Virus record (IMG/VR): IMGVR_UViG_3300042691_013753 | Span: 1 to 30,330 of that record | From: a virus | Length of the DNA: 30,330 nt | Direction: 5' to 3' (one strand) | In this document: one piece after another, positions 5,995-17,119 of the stretch | How positions within the stretch are numbered: the stretch's first letter is position 1 | How the letters are laid out: the number at the start of each line of letters is the position of its first letter | The notes under the pieces: model-generated | What the model saw: only the letters and a program-made list of their open reading frames with translations | Told to the model about the DNA's origin: nothing | Databases searched by the model: none | Made by a program: the position numbers and the translations under genes

Positions 5995-6540
5995 TTAAGC
6001 AGGTGACCCGTAAACTACTGTGAAGTTTTGGGTTAAACCACCTAATGCATTAGTTGTAGTTGAGCCTGATAAGAATACTGCTGGCAATTGTTCCTGACCA
6101 GTGAACGTAACTGAATAACCATAAAGGTCACCCAATGCTGCTCCTGTCTGAATTGTACCTGCAGTTACATCTGCTCCTTCTCTTTCACCAACTAATAGTG
6201 CATCTCCGTTTTGTGTCCAAACGATGATTTGGGGACGTCCATAAGCCATAAGCTTCAATTGGGTAGTCATTTCGTTTGTTAACTTCTTCAAATTAAGAAC
6301 TAATTCTTGAGAGAAGAAAGTTGTTCCGTTTTCACGAGATGAATTTACAGTTTCAGTATATGCACTAGTTCCCTTTAATTCATAGTAGTAAAGAGAAGAG
6401 CCGGATGGAACTGCTGTGAGTTCTCCGTTTCCGTTTTTAGTGAAAGAACCAGTTGTGTAGTTAATGAAGTAAACTCCTTGAAGTCCACCTACACTTTCCT
6501 TACATACTTCGTTTCTTCCAGCTGATATATTACATGGCAT
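5995..6540 (-). CDS. Major tail tube protein (probable)
   Basis: 181 residues, beginning MPCNISAGRNEVCKESVGG and GVYFINYTTGSF, a start I associate with tail tube proteins of Bacteroidota phages. The middle FFSQELVLNLKKLTNEMT and the C-terminal strand GLTQNFTVVYGSP are typical of the tube fold, which polymerises into the tail lumen. It follows the major capsid gene after a 64-nt gap containing a hairpin and is followed by a strong terminator, consistent with abundant expression. The assignment is by resemblance and context. Confidence 0.7.
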   Translation of the reverse strand: MPCNISAGRNEVCKESVGGLQGVYFINYTTGSFTKNGNGELTAVPSGSSLYYYELKGTSAYTETVNSSRENGTTFFSQELVLNLKKLTNEMTTQLKLMAYGRPQIIVWTQNGDALLVGEREGADVTAGTIQTGAALGDLYGYSVTFTGQEQLPAVFLSGSTTTNALGGLTQNFTVVYGSPA

Positions 6541-6569
6541 ATCTTTAGTGTTTTAAGTTTGTTAATAAT

Positions 6570-6592
6570 AGGGGTGAGAATATCCCACCCCT
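6570..6592. terminator. GC-rich hairpin between capsid and tail-tube genes
   Basis: AGGGGTG and CACCCCT form a 7-bp stem with a 9-nt loop. On the plus strand it is followed by TTTTGTTTTTTT and looks like a true terminator. On the minus strand, the direction of the genes, only ATTATTAAC follows. It could block antisense transcription, act as a weak partial terminator, or protect the capsid mRNA 3' end. Confidence 0.55.
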
Positions 6593-6604
6593 TTTGTTTT
6601 TTTA

Positions 6605-7576
6605 TTAGTAAGCTCCGTAGTATACGATATCAGAACCGATACCGAACTGCGTACCTGCGGTGTATCTCATAATTACTCTGTAATTTTGAGAACCATCGAT
6701 GTTAGCCATGTCCAACACTCTTACTTCGTTGTAATCTGACAACAAGCCAGTCCCAAAGAATAAGTTAGATTTTTGAGCTGCAACTACTTTAGATGCACCC
6801 ATACCTGGACAATGGAACATTTCAATTCCGTTGAAGTTCAATGGTTTCTCTCCAACATTTAGCATATTATTAAAGCCGTTAGCACCTTGTGCTCCACCTG
6901 CTAATGCCTGCTGATAAGCCTTAACTACGTTAGTTGGAACGAACAATGCCAAATCTTGCTTACCATATACAGTTGTAGGGATAGTAGCAACGATGTCATT
7001 CAATTTAGCCAATACGTTAGATGCAGTAATAGAACCAGAGATGATAGTTGTACCACCTTCTGCTTTAGCTGAAACTACTGCTCCTGCTCCACCAGCTGCA
7101 ACAGATGCAGATAATGCAGTTTGGAATCCAGGGAATGAACCATTGGAGTTTGTACCTTGCCAAATTGCAATTTCAGTTGCTTCGGCTACTTGACCACCTA
7201 CATAAGAGATTAAGAAATCGTTGAAATTCTTTGGAATCTCATCGAATGCAGAAAATCCTAAAGATAGGGCTTCCCAAGAATCTACGAATTCTTGCTTACA
7301 CAATTCCAAGTTAACCTGAAGTTCCTTTGGAGTTAATACTTGCTCTGATAATGCTACAGAACCTGATGTTACGAAATCACAAGATGCGTCCTGGATAATA
7401 CCAGATACATCTAATTTTTGGATTACGCTTTTGTACTTCACATTTGGCATAATAGTTACATACTTCTTATCCAAAGTGTTTGCACTTAACAACGCCGCTG
7501 CGATGAATCCTGAAGCAGCTTCACCTGAATAGGTAGAAGTTACTGTAGGAAGTGCGAAATTTTGTCTTGCTTTCAT
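6605..7576 (-). CDS. Major capsid protein (HK97-fold type)
   Basis: The 323-residue product carries a short N-terminal arm (PTVTSTYSGEAASGF), then YVTIMPNVKYKSVIQKL, PKELQVNLELCKQEFVDSWE, VYGKQDLALFVPTNV and a C-terminal RYTAGTQFGIGSDIVYYG. These are features of Bacteroidota-phage capsid proteins with the HK97 fold. There is no long delta-like scaffold domain at the N-terminus. Scaffolding appears to be supplied by the separate gene just upstream (7607-8305). G+C content and codon choice look somewhat higher than in neighbours, as expected for an abundant protein. The N-terminal arm reappears at the C-terminus of the protease at 22216-23244. Confidence 0.88.
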   Translation of the reverse strand: MKARQNFALPTVTSTYSGEAASGFIAAALLSANTLDKKYVTIMPNVKYKSVIQKLDVSGIIQDASCDFVTSGSVALSEQVLTPKELQVNLELCKQEFVDSWEALSLGFSAFDEIPKNFNDFLISYVGGQVAEATEIAIWQGTNSNGSFPGFQTALSASVAAGGAGAVVSAKAEGGTTIISGSITASNVLAKLNDIVATIPTTVYGKQDLALFVPTNVVKAYQQALAGGAQGANGFNNMLNVGEKPLNFNGIEMFHCPGMGASKVVAAQKSNLFFGTGLLSDYNEVRVLDMANIDGSQNYRVIMRYTAGTQFGIGSDIVYYGAY

Positions 7577-8361: not shown

Positions 8362-8883
8362 TTATGTAATATACCTACATGCTAGCACGCCTCTACTATC
8401 CGAATGATTTCCTGTTGATTTAGTTGCTGTTGCAACATCAACAATCCAATTCTGATTTCCAGGATTTGCTACAAATGCAGATGATGCATGGTAGGTTGCT
8501 CCTGTTAAACTATATGGTATAAATGCTTTGTTAATTAAAACTAATTGTAGTTCATCAGCTGATGGCATAAACCAATCAGTAAATCCATCATTAGTATAAT
8601 TCCAACACGTTCCTATACCATCTGTAGTGTATCCTGCAGCAAATGCTGCCTGTGTATTTGTAAATCCTTTACCATACGCTATATCAGTTGGCGTAACAAC
8701 ACCACCAATTGAAGGCCATGTCATTGCACCACTTATTTCAACAGGTGCAATAATTAATCCCTGTTGATTAGGATAATTACCAGTTAAATAAATTACATAT
8801 CCACCCTGATAGTATAATCCTAAACTTAACAGTCTACCCGTTGCACCTCCGCTTGTATTAAATCCAAATGGTTGTATTAACAT
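8362..8883 (-). CDS. DUF1566-like (C-type-lectin-fold) tail tip protein
   Basis: The 173-residue protein has the layout of DUF1566/Lcl-type domains: GGYVIYLTGNYP, GLIIAPVEISGAMTWPS, an NTQAAFAAG helix, then DGFTDWFMPSADELQLV and a C-terminal SDSRGVLACRY. This C-type-lectin-like fold is used in bacterial and phage surface-binding proteins. It follows the fibre gene with a TAATATG junction, so it probably caps or accompanies that fibre and contacts the host. The same fold is a frequent target of diversity-generating retroelements, but no reverse transcriptase is in this window. Confidence 0.7.
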   Translation of the reverse strand: MLIQPFGFNTSGGATGRLLSLGLYYQGGYVIYLTGNYPNQQGLIIAPVEISGAMTWPSIGGVVTPTDIAYGKGFTNTQAAFAAGYTTDGIGTCWNYTNDGFTDWFMPSADELQLVLINKAFIPYSLTGATYHASSAFVANPGNQNWIVDVATATKSTGNHSDSRGVLACRYIT

Positions 8884-15625: not shown

Positions 15626-16150
15626 TTAATTGTAAGTGTTTAATATGCTTGCTTTTTCTTTGAATGATTTTATAAATACCTTTTCCAATTCTCTTAAATC
15701 TTTTCTACTGATACCTTCCAATTCAATTATAGTTTCAATCTTATGATTATCTACACCCCATTTGTCAAACGATTCATGTAGAAGGGGTAATCTATTTCTT
15801 CTATTTTGCTTTGCCAATCTGTAATGGATTTTGTGTTCTCCCCATCTTATCTTCAGATGTGTTAGTGTCATACCAATATAATACTCTCCATCAGGATTCT
15901 TAATGTAATATATTTTTCCACTTTTATCAGCAGCTCTATGCTTTCTGACAATTTCACATACTCTTTTAGCATTATCTTTTTGCCATTGAGTATGGTGTTT
16001 AGGATTTAGTGTGGTTCTGAATTTGTGATTATCCACTTTATTACATTCCTTACACTTTGGTTGAAGGGAATCCTTGCTCTTGCTACATTTAGAGAAGTCT
16101 GTGGTAGGTTTGGTAATGCTACATGAGTAGCAGTGTTTGAGTGGTGTCAT
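15626..16150 (-). CDS. GIY-YIG homing-type endonuclease with zinc finger
   Basis: 174 residues. The N-terminal 40 residues carry a zinc-binding pattern (C7, C10, C33, C36; HCYSC...PKCKEC). The GIY-YIG domain begins at about 78 with KIYYIKNPDGEYYIGM. Conserved catalytic positions are visible: the two tyrosines, R102 in IRWGEH, H106, and an acidic residue in LRELEKVFIKS (about E156). It appears intact. Free-standing enzymes of this type cut related phage genomes and spread their own gene. It is the first gene after the terminator and promoter at 16206-16280, consistent with a mobile insertion. Confidence 0.85.
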   Translation of the reverse strand: MTPLKHCYSCSITKPTTDFSKCSKSKDSLQPKCKECNKVDNHKFRTTLNPKHHTQWQKDNAKRVCEIVRKHRAADKSGKIYYIKNPDGEYYIGMTLTHLKIRWGEHKIHYRLAKQNRRNRLPLLHESFDKWGVDNHKIETIIELEGISRKDLRELEKVFIKSFKEKASILNTYN

Positions 16151-16205
16151 TGTTTGCTTTTACTATAAATATCACTTATTTTAAAAAACGATAAATAATT
16201 CTTTA

Positions 16206-16234
16206 AATATACTAAATAATTTTTAGATTTACAA
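16206..16234 (-). promoter_or_regulatory. Predicted promoter for the endonuclease and following operon
   Basis: On the minus strand TTGTAA (16234-16229), a 17-nt spacer ending TAG, and TATATT (16211-16206). The site lies just downstream of a terminator and about 55 nt before the endonuclease ATG, so it could start the leftward operon. It resembles the predicted promoter at 17091-17119. Confidence 0.5.
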
Positions 16235-16245
16235 GTATCTGTAAA
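16228..16245. promoter_or_regulatory. Palindrome over the -35 region (candidate operator)
   Basis: TTTACA, a 6-nt centre, then TGTAAA. It covers the predicted -35 box of the leftward promoter. The half-sites resemble those at 17208-17226 (TTTGACA/TGTCAAA). A phage regulator could bind both. Confidence 0.4.
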
Positions 16246-16248
16246 TAA

Positions 16249-16280
16249 AAAGAACCAGGTCAATGACAACCTGGTTCTTT
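16249..16280 (-). terminator. Strong intrinsic terminator after the replication-initiator gene
   Basis: AAAGAACCAGGT and ACCTGGTTCTTT form a perfect 12-bp stem with an 8-nt loop. On the minus strand the stem runs into TTTTTATTT. It separates the initiator transcript from the endonuclease/virion operon. The symmetry would also allow weaker termination on the plus strand. Confidence 0.85.
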
Positions 16281-16289
16281 AGCATATAT

Positions 16290-16377
16290 CTAAAAGTAGA
16301 TGAGCACTGAATATAAAATAGCATAAACAATTCAGTATTGATTAAGCTCATCTGATTATATAACATACTACTTTTAG
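16290..16377. repeat. Three-tier nested inverted repeat downstream of the initiator gene
   Basis: Three inverted pairs share one axis: CTAAAAGTAG (16290-16299) with CTACTTTTAG (16368-16377); AGATGAGC (16298-16305) with GCTCATCT (16346-16353); ACTGAAT (16306-16312) with ATTCAGT (16330-16336). The left arms are contiguous. The right arms are separated by 9 and 14 nt, giving a long stem with one-sided bulges and a 17-nt loop. It lies between the initiator stop (16389) and the terminator. It could be an RNA 3' element or, by analogy with lambda, the palindrome beside the origin. Confidence 0.75.
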
Positions 16378-16388
16378 TTTGTCATTAA

Positions 16389-16961
16389 TTAATACTTTGA
16401 TGATTTAATAGAATTAATTAAATAACTATATTCTTCATCTGATATAGTATTAGTAATAATATCAGTATAAACATAACTAGTACTAGTACTGTTTATTTCT
16501 TCATTATTTATTTCTATATTATTTACTTCTTCAGTATTTATTTCTATAGTGTTTATTACATGGGGGTTATCCGTTTTCGGTTGGTCCGTTTTCGGTTTAT
16601 CCGTTTTCGGACTGTCCGTTTTCGGAATATCCGTAAATGGACTGATTGTTAATCTAACATCGGATACAATATAATCAACTCTAACAAACTTACCTTTTTC
16701 ATCTCTTACTTTCAGTTGTGTAACATAACCTCTTTCAACTAATTCATTAAAAGCAGTTATAGTACCATCTCTACCATCCTTACTGAATTGATGTAATGCA
16801 GTTTTAAGAACTACCCATTCATCAGGTAGAGAAATGATGCAAGCAAGTAATCCTTTTGCTTTCCAACTTAAACTTTTATCTCTCAACATATCGTTAGATA
16901 ATTGAGTAAAGTTTTGAGAGTGTTTAACTCTGATAATTTTTGATGTGTTATTAAACTTCAT
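16389..16961 (-). CDS. Replication initiator-like protein with internal origin
   Basis: 190 residues. The N-terminal 90 form a winged-helix domain of the phage replication-organiser type (SWKAKGLLACIISLPDEWVV, then DGTITAFNELVERGYVTQ). A repeated linker follows, PKTD(S/K/Q/N) four times at about 114-133, then an Asn/Glu/Ile-rich repeated stretch and a short C-terminal helix (SDEEYSYLINSIKSS). The linker DNA is a set of 15-bp repeats, and the following DNA is very A+T-rich. The design matches lambda O, where the N-terminus binds iterons inside its own gene. It probably recruits the helicase or the AAA+ protein (17682-18584). A structured leader lies directly upstream of its ATG. Confidence 0.65.
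   Translation of the reverse strand: MKFNNTSKIIRVKHSQNFTQLSNDMLRDKSLSWKAKGLLACIISLPDEWVVLKTALHQFSKDGRDGTITAFNELVERGYVTQLKVRDEKGKFVRVDYIVSDVRLTISPFTDIPKTDSPKTDKPKTDQPKTDNPHVINTIEINTEEVNNIEINNEEINSTSTSYVYTDIITNTISDEEYSYLINSIKSSKY
16492..16566. repeat. Five A+T-rich 15-mers (candidate DNA-unwinding element)
   Basis: Units beginning TTTATTTCT or variants start at 16492, 16507, 16522, 16537 and 16552, an exact 15-bp period. They encode the (N)(N/T)(I/E)E(I/V) repeats of the initiator. They lie next to the iterons in the downstream direction of the gene, as the A+T-rich region does in the lambda origin. Confidence 0.75.
16571..16645. repeat. Five 15-bp iterons, candidate replication origin
   Basis: CCGTTTTCGG occurs at 16571, 16586, 16601 and 16616, and a degenerate CCGTAAATGG at 16631, an exact 15-bp period. 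Each unit has CCG/CGG dyad ends. The G+C-rich units stand out from their surroundings. They encode the PKTD linker of the initiator. A set of iterons within an initiator gene beside A+T-rich DNA is the classical arrangement of a theta origin. Confidence 0.75.
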
Positions 16962-16972
16962 AATATGTGCAT

Positions 16973-17022
16973 AAAAAAACCCATCAAAACTGGCAGTGAG
17001 ATTACCAGTTTATCAGGGTTTT
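16973..17022 (-). promoter_or_regulatory. Terminator-like hairpin in the initiator leader (hairpin 2)
   Basis: AAAACCC pairs with GGGTTTT and AAACTGG pairs with CCAGTTT. They are separated by TGAT opposite TGAT (minus strand), which can stack as U-U, G-A, A-G, U-U. The loop is 11 nt. On the minus strand the stem ends in seven T's 12 nt before the initiator ATG, so it looks like an attenuator. Its loop holds ATCTCAC (minus strand), complementary to the loop of the hairpin at 17051-17069. Confidence 0.75.
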
Positions 17023-17050
17023 AGTTTGGAATTGCTTCCGATTTCTTTTA

Positions 17051-17076
17051 CACAATATCTCACATTGTGGTTTTTT
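17051..17076 (+). promoter_or_regulatory. Second leader hairpin with complementary loop; plus-strand terminator-like (hairpin 1)
   Basis: CACAAT and ATTGTG flank the 7-nt loop ATCTCAC (plus strand). On the plus strand GTTTTTT follows, so it could terminate a rightward RNA. On the minus strand it is the first hairpin of the initiator leader, with loop GTGAGAT. All seven loop bases can pair with the loop of hairpin 2. Confidence 0.6.
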
Positions 17077-17090
17077 CTGAATGATGTATG

Positions 17091-17119
17091 AATATACTAT
17101 AAGTTTTTTAAATTACCAA
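17091..17119 (-). promoter_or_regulatory. Predicted promoter for the initiator gene
   Basis: On the minus strand TTGGTA (17119-17114), a 17-nt spacer ending TAG, and TATATT (17096-17091). Transcription from here would give a leader of about 120 nt carrying both hairpins. The -10 context TAGTATATT is the same as in the promoter at 16206-16234. Confidence 0.5.

Follow-up and report, generated by a model that had tools for sequence, protein, structure and literature searches.

The replication initiator gene of the virus analysed here is preceded by a leader that belongs to a conserved RNA family, in which two hairpins are matched through their loops; such a kissing-hairpin leader is apparently undescribed. 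The family is real, since dozens of related phages, one of them cultured, keep the pairing while its letters change. It constitutes a structured RNA class absent from Rfam in which every helix covaries, the tertiary contact between the loops among them, and it supplies a natural set of kissing-loop pairs that can be exchanged and that come joined to terminators. The leader position suggests control of replication timing in phages of Bacteroidota-type hosts. On balance we favour reading the leader as an attenuator that acts in cis on transcription of the replication operon, its terminator being gated by the kissing of the loops.

The leader and its hairpins

The window (the whole stretch of DNA analysed, 30.3 kb and 33% G+C) is the IMG/VR virus record IMGVR_UViG_3300042691_013753, in which terminase, portal, protease and tail genes are present. 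Its initiator gene (minus strand, 16389..16961, 190 aa; PHROG 4707 replication initiation protein, E = 6.6e-22) heads a long run of minus-strand genes. The top isolate matches of the terminase are Bacteroides phages, and from the promoter form, the terminase relatives and phage JQ (both below) we infer a host among the Bacteroidota. The initiator is short, 190 aa versus about 275-315 aa for homologues of Bacteroides and Alistipes phages; its sequence includes a repetitive Pro-Lys-Thr-Asp stretch and its tail is rich in Asn. The gene adjoining it (15626-16150) matches endonuclease VII-like and homing endonuclease families and is probably a mobile homing gene, because it is absent from that place in the related locus L004.

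The minus-strand leader folds with z = -3.4. Hairpin H1 (17051..17069, minus strand), CACAAT[GTGAGAT]ATTGTG, has the stem CACAAU/AUUGUG, which covaries in relatives, and the loop L1 (GUGAGAU, 17057..17063). The terminator hairpin H3 (16977..17021, minus strand) reads AAACCC UGAU AAACUGGUA (AUCUCAC) UGCCAGUUU UGAU GGGUUU, that is, a lower stem AAACCC/GGGUUU, a 4x4 internal loop and an upper stem AAACUGGUA/UGCCAGUUU, with covariation in both stems. Its loop L3 (AUCUCAC, 16996..17002) pairs with L1, as loop covariation in relatives supports, and the complementarity ends with the loop borders; across relatives, too, conservation is limited to the loop pairs. A U7 tract (16973..16979, minus strand; U5-U7 here in all copies) gives H3 the form of an intrinsic terminator, and the initiator ATG lies downstream of it at 16961. 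The sequence is thus laid out as an attenuator would be, with a predicted promoter, then H3 and its U-tract, then the initiator gene.

An earlier note on this DNA, made from the letters alone, had placed the hairpins, loops, U-tract and start codon, and reading the sequence directly and folding it bears those coordinates out. Both of its hairpins are present; it missed a middle hairpin, GGAA[GCAA]UUCC (17028..17039, minus strand), which is a feature of subtype I and is absent from subtypes II and III (see below), and its open H1 loop is not what minimum free energy (MFE) folding gives. The open 7-nt loop that kissing needs is not the MFE state, because the MFE form adds two pairs across the loop and leaves only GAG unpaired (-2.7 kcal/mol for the open form of H1 alone, versus -4.9).

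Complementary loops in a single genome are no evidence alone, because shuffled sequence, at loose criteria, yields about 2.5 such 7-nt loop pairs per strand per 30 kb. Because a few chance pairs per window are to be expected, it is the relatives that carry the case.

Covariation of the loops in relatives

A search with the initiator yields the near-identical loci L002 and L003 and the 91%-identical L004, which keeps both loops and has compensated changes in both H3 stems. L026, L046 and L087 were found independently of the loops, through terminase homology followed by blastn with the leader. The loci L091-L108 were found by a middle-hairpin pattern that is blind to the loops, and in 18/18 of them the 7-nt loops are exactly complementary. 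Six loop pairs occur in subtype I: GUGAGAU/AUCUCAC (the window and L046), AUCGCAC/GUGCGAU (L026), GUAGGAA/UUCCUAC (L087) and, among L091-L108, the order-swapped AUCUCAC/GUGAGAU and the new pairs GUUGGAU/AUCCAAC and GUAGGAU/AUCCUAC. The possible kissing loop of the earlier note thereby gains strong support. Independent variation of the loops in related genomes, which that note had named beforehand as counting against it, was looked for and not seen; the loops change together.

In a 16-row alignment (A4) the kissing helix is paired in 112/112 cells with no wobble pair; five of its seven pairs have changed on both sides, one of them through all four Watson-Crick types. The covariation score of the whole structure is 0.499, versus 0.157 when shuffled and at most 0.117 when the structure is slid, and 0/500 shuffles reach it. 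A 17-row alignment (A5), which takes in L120, L121, L137 and L140, gives 119/119 Watson-Crick cells, L1 and L3 pairing at 100% in all 17 copies, again with 5/7 pairs changed on both sides. As the copies are related, independent loop changes are fewer than these cell counts and the shuffle-based scores overstate independence; the safer measure is the number of distinct loop pairs, the order swap and the recurrence of the pairing in three architectures. Unaided, RNAalifold recovers H1, H3 and part of the middle hairpin. Support for the middle hairpin comes from RNAalifold and alignment A4, not A5: its stem is GGAA/UUCC, GCAA/UUGC or GAAC/GUUC in relatives, and its sequence is replaced in L046, L120, L121, L137 and L140.

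Several controls address specificity. A structure-only search (stems, linker length and following T-run required) through both strands of 0.92 Mb of related loci matches just the window element and its own reverse complement. Complementary loops give 22 matches, against 1 and 3 for reversed and complemented controls, and a one-position shift of the structure string drops pairing from 100% to 35%. Two loop positions were left free in a search of viral_contigs for GTNNGAT and ATCNNAC, in either order, with GGGGTTTTT after them; the free positions are complementary in 11/11 distinct cases that have both strict stems and in 8/80 elsewhere, several of the 8 being other architectures of the element.

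The window has no match in Rfam (release 15), at a lax threshold its leader gives nothing beyond chance-level matches, and the element in relatives of all three architectures has no match there either. In particular, no Rfam cobalamin aptamer lies upstream in the window, its leader or the element of relatives. No description of the element was found in the literature searched, which left out most subscription papers. Unpaired conservation outside the loops of subtype I amounts to little beyond an AAAGA-like stretch after H1 and A/C-rich spacers, and the middle hairpin is replaced or missing in places; the conserved unpaired ligand pocket that marks a metabolite riboswitch was not found in these copies.

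Other architectures

Two further architectures keep the kiss. Subtype II (L139, L212) has an 8-9-nt kiss, CAUCUCAC with GUGAGAUG or CAUCCUAC with GUAGGAUG, and a 14-15-nt H1 loop. Subtype III (L145, L148, L163, L168, L169, L181 and others) is compact, with a longer H1, a short linker and the loops GUCAGAU/AUCUGAC or GUAGGAU/AUCCUAC.

The isolated Tenacibaculum phage JQ carries a subtype II copy (MT002873.2, about 35937-36059) with the H1 stem AGUUAC/GUAACU around AGCAUCCUACUUAAA and the terminator loop AGGUAGGAUG. A small ORF, a DnaD-like/replication-initiation gene and a helicase follow it. Plain MFE folding of this leader misses its H1 and does not reach significance (z = -1.3), and the standing of the JQ copy as a member of the family rests on comparison with L212 and L139. 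The mechanism is testable because JQ was isolated with a cultured host.

In L131 (about 6627-6721) and L215 (about 8439-8528), stretches of 7-10 nt that are complementary to each other precede a terminator and a short endonuclease-like gene. With weak hairpins, these two loci may represent a distant form or chance; we exclude them from the count of the element.

Genes behind the element

All well-supported copies are located at a replication-initiator-like gene or immediately upstream of one, and these genes span several unrelated families: RepA-type (the window, L004), Lin1244_N (L026, L091, L137, L168), DUF6291 (L046, L087, L181, L212), replisome organizer or DnaD-like (L093, JQ), initiation-like (L121) and families with no profile match (L096, L105). 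DUF6291 is filed here as initiator-like, a putative function suggested by its place and by weak matches to primosomal proteins. The ATG usually lies 7-18 nt past the U-tract, closer in subtype III, and a small ORF intervenes in some copies. The position ahead of the initiator gene and the attenuator-like terminator, both pointed out in the earlier note, are conserved in relatives. Because several unrelated initiator families share the element, initiation seems to be controlled by a module that is distinct from the initiator itself.

Homologous initiators occur behind a bare promoter, for example in L022 (74% to L121) and L020 (69% to L046), and the initiator homologues of Bacteroides, Alistipes and Parabacteroides isolate phages (L006-L009, L011) have no such leader. 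Among the terminase relatives, no leader was seen with the terminator and without H1. In place of the element, L015 (about 560-940) and L070 (about 6330-6600) have a different sequence behind the same promoter, one that is long, possibly structured and without a match in Rfam.

The element looks phage-borne, since searches of bacterial genomes gave no real copy. The subtype I model was run on 395 genomes of the Cyclobacterium class, in a search whose first stage may miss weak copies, and turned up no real one; four weak matches there were rejected, the element being absent. The sole match of the middle-hairpin pattern in genome_contigs, L130 (Cyclobacterium), is inside a gene, has no kissing hairpins and is attributed to chance.

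A second conserved inverted repeat, GATGAGCTTAATCAATACTGA...TTCAGTGCTCATC, occurs after the initiator in the window (16165-16385, minus strand), L004 and L015, and lies inverted near initiators in L020, L022, L023, L028, L030, L056 and L064; the motif TTAATCAATACTGA recurs, reverse-oriented, upstream of the initiator in relatives. This second element is possibly a structured RNA or an origin hairpin. The terminator behind the window's initiator (16280-16249) has a loop, TTGTCATT, complementary to AATGACAA (16385-16378) just past the initiator stop, a match that is probably chance because it is broken in L004.

Promoter and strand

A promoter of the Bacteroidota type is predicted, by consensus only, upstream of H1 in the window, as TTGG-N19-TATATTCA with its -33-like box TTGG at 17116..17119 and its -7-like box TATATTCA at 17089..17096 (minus strand). 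Most subtype I relatives have TTTG-N20-TATATTTG or TATATTAC, or something close to these, with its end about 20 nt upstream of H1; we take TTTG-N20-TATATTTG to be the Bacteroidota promoter form. L121, L137 and L140 have no such promoter at that spacing. Since the predicted promoter ends about 20 nt upstream of it, H1 is probably included in transcripts, and the window transcript would start at about 17080-17085. The same promoter directly precedes initiator genes that have no RNA element in L020, L022 and L030. The stems hold many G-U pairs that fit the rep-sense strand, and the reverse strand scores far lower in the model, both of which point to the rep-sense strand as the functional RNA.

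Proposed mechanism and alternatives

Comparative sequence evidence supports the three helices, the kissing pairs, the strand and the position before replication genes. From these we infer a promoter, termination, an effect of kissing on termination, the sign of that effect and a sensed input, which would work together as follows. The host-type promoter would start the transcript about 12-16 nt before H1, and H1 would fold first. As the upper part of H3 emerges, its loop could engage that of H1 in a kiss of 7 Watson-Crick pairs (some relatives have 8-9). At the H3 U-tract, transcription would either stop, freeing an RNA of about 105 nt, or read through into the initiator and the genes behind it, and whether the kiss has formed would set how well the lower H3 stem closes. 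That kissing switches an attenuator in this way is plausible. We slightly favour the kiss as the read-through (antitermination) state over the opposite sign, because H3 alone is already a strong terminator and the complementarity is without exception.

Across copies, H3 alone has -17 to -22 kcal/mol (-17.8 in the window), open-loop H1 -2.5 to -2.9 and the loop duplexes -7.4 to -9.0. Given its marginal energy and that of the loop duplex, the kiss probably stabilises the open form of H1. H3 needs no kiss to be stable, so kissing might have no bearing on termination and contribute to RNA stability instead. No alternative antiterminator helix with covariation support was found. The only long alternative pairing joins the 3' arm of the middle hairpin with GGGGUUUUU; read by eye, it is invariant where kept and lost in diverged copies. 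A kissing loop has been shown experimentally to control a terminator, with either sign, in corrinoid riboswitches (PMC10653944), and replication genes of phage P4 are governed by termination via complementary sequences of one leader (PMC4825925).

The alternative that survives best, itself doubtful, sees the product in the terminated leader of about 105 nt. This would be a stable small RNA of the phage that is protected by its kissing fold and acts in trans on other transcripts or a protein, with the initiator expressed from leftover read-through. The strong terminator directly behind the structure, the compact fold and the independence from any one initiator family would all suit such an RNA. 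A free small RNA should, however, sometimes be found elsewhere, and the well-supported copies are all at or before a replication gene with the U-tract near its start codon; moreover, matches to the loop sequences elsewhere in the same genomes number 13, against 18 expected.

We consider it unlikely that the leader controls copy number on the same strand. Here leaders already released would pair in trans with the H1 or H3 loop of leaders still being transcribed and compete for their kiss, so that initiator expression falls as genomes accumulate and leader increases, and the exchangeable 7-nt loop pairs would be an address against cross-regulation by related phages. The loops are indeed self-complementary between molecules, the six subtype I loop pairs would make sensing type-specific, and P4 offers a precedent of termination with pairing partners in the same transcript (PMC4825925). 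Pairing in cis should nevertheless outcompete pairing in trans, and no third partner sequence was found in the same genomes.

Little probability also attaches to a 5' cap, a structure that would shield the initiator mRNA against decay or place the ribosome, with no regulated termination and with the U-tract as an unstructured site on which ribosomes land. The structure does begin near the predicted 5' end and end shortly before the ATG, but a GC lower stem with U5-U7 behind it is what marks a terminator, all architectures conserve this combination, and homologous initiators exist without the element.

A DNA-level element (an origin cruciform, or an operator for the initiator or a repressor) is disfavoured as very improbable. 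It would account for the place before initiator genes and for L1 and L3 forming an inverted repeat 54 bp apart; it would not lead one to expect loops that change in pairs rather than stay constant, G-U wobbles in the stems that fit RNA of one strand, an orientation that always agrees with transcription, or the sharing of the element by unrelated initiators. Chance complementarity of two ordinary hairpins, which shuffled windows can mimic at loose criteria, is refuted by covariation of the loops in relatives together with the shuffles, the otherwise empty structure-only scan, the reversed and complemented controls and the degenerate-loop test.

Comparison with known systems

Loop-loop copy control in plasmids, as in ColE1 RNA I/RNA II, also uses fully complementary 7-nt loops to control replication, with loops diversified in relatives. 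In those systems an antisense RNA from the opposite strand pairs with its target and zips into a longer duplex. The likeness to ColE1, IncB and IncL drawn in the earlier note holds for the loop geometry and stops there: those plasmids use a separate opposite-strand antisense RNA, whereas here both loops are predicted to lie on one transcript and complementarity is confined to them, and the genomes hold no excess of matching loop sequences elsewhere. Complementarity that runs past the loops and would allow a full duplex is absent from the window and is not conserved across relatives. The put sites of phage HK022 are short cis-acting hairpin RNAs near an early promoter that act on polymerase at later terminators. 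Like the leader hairpins they are cis RNAs that could alter termination, though put makes no loop-loop contact to a terminator.

The immunity system of P4 (CI RNA with seqA and seqC) likewise holds down replication genes by premature termination and has complementary sequences in the same leader, but it involves a processed RNA and two target sequences (PMC4825925), where here the hairpin of an intrinsic terminator kisses a second hairpin and is not known to have a processed species or a third partner. The L5-L13 kiss of corrinoid riboswitches (metE of Priestia megaterium, cobT of A. halodurans) resembles the present element in that an upstream hairpin uses its loop for a kiss with one in the expression platform, and this kiss gates a leader terminator. 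Those riboswitches have a large conserved ligand core and a kiss of 4-5 bp (PMC10653944), as against few conserved unpaired bases and 7-9 bp here, and, unlike in them, the loop that is kissed here is that of the terminator itself.
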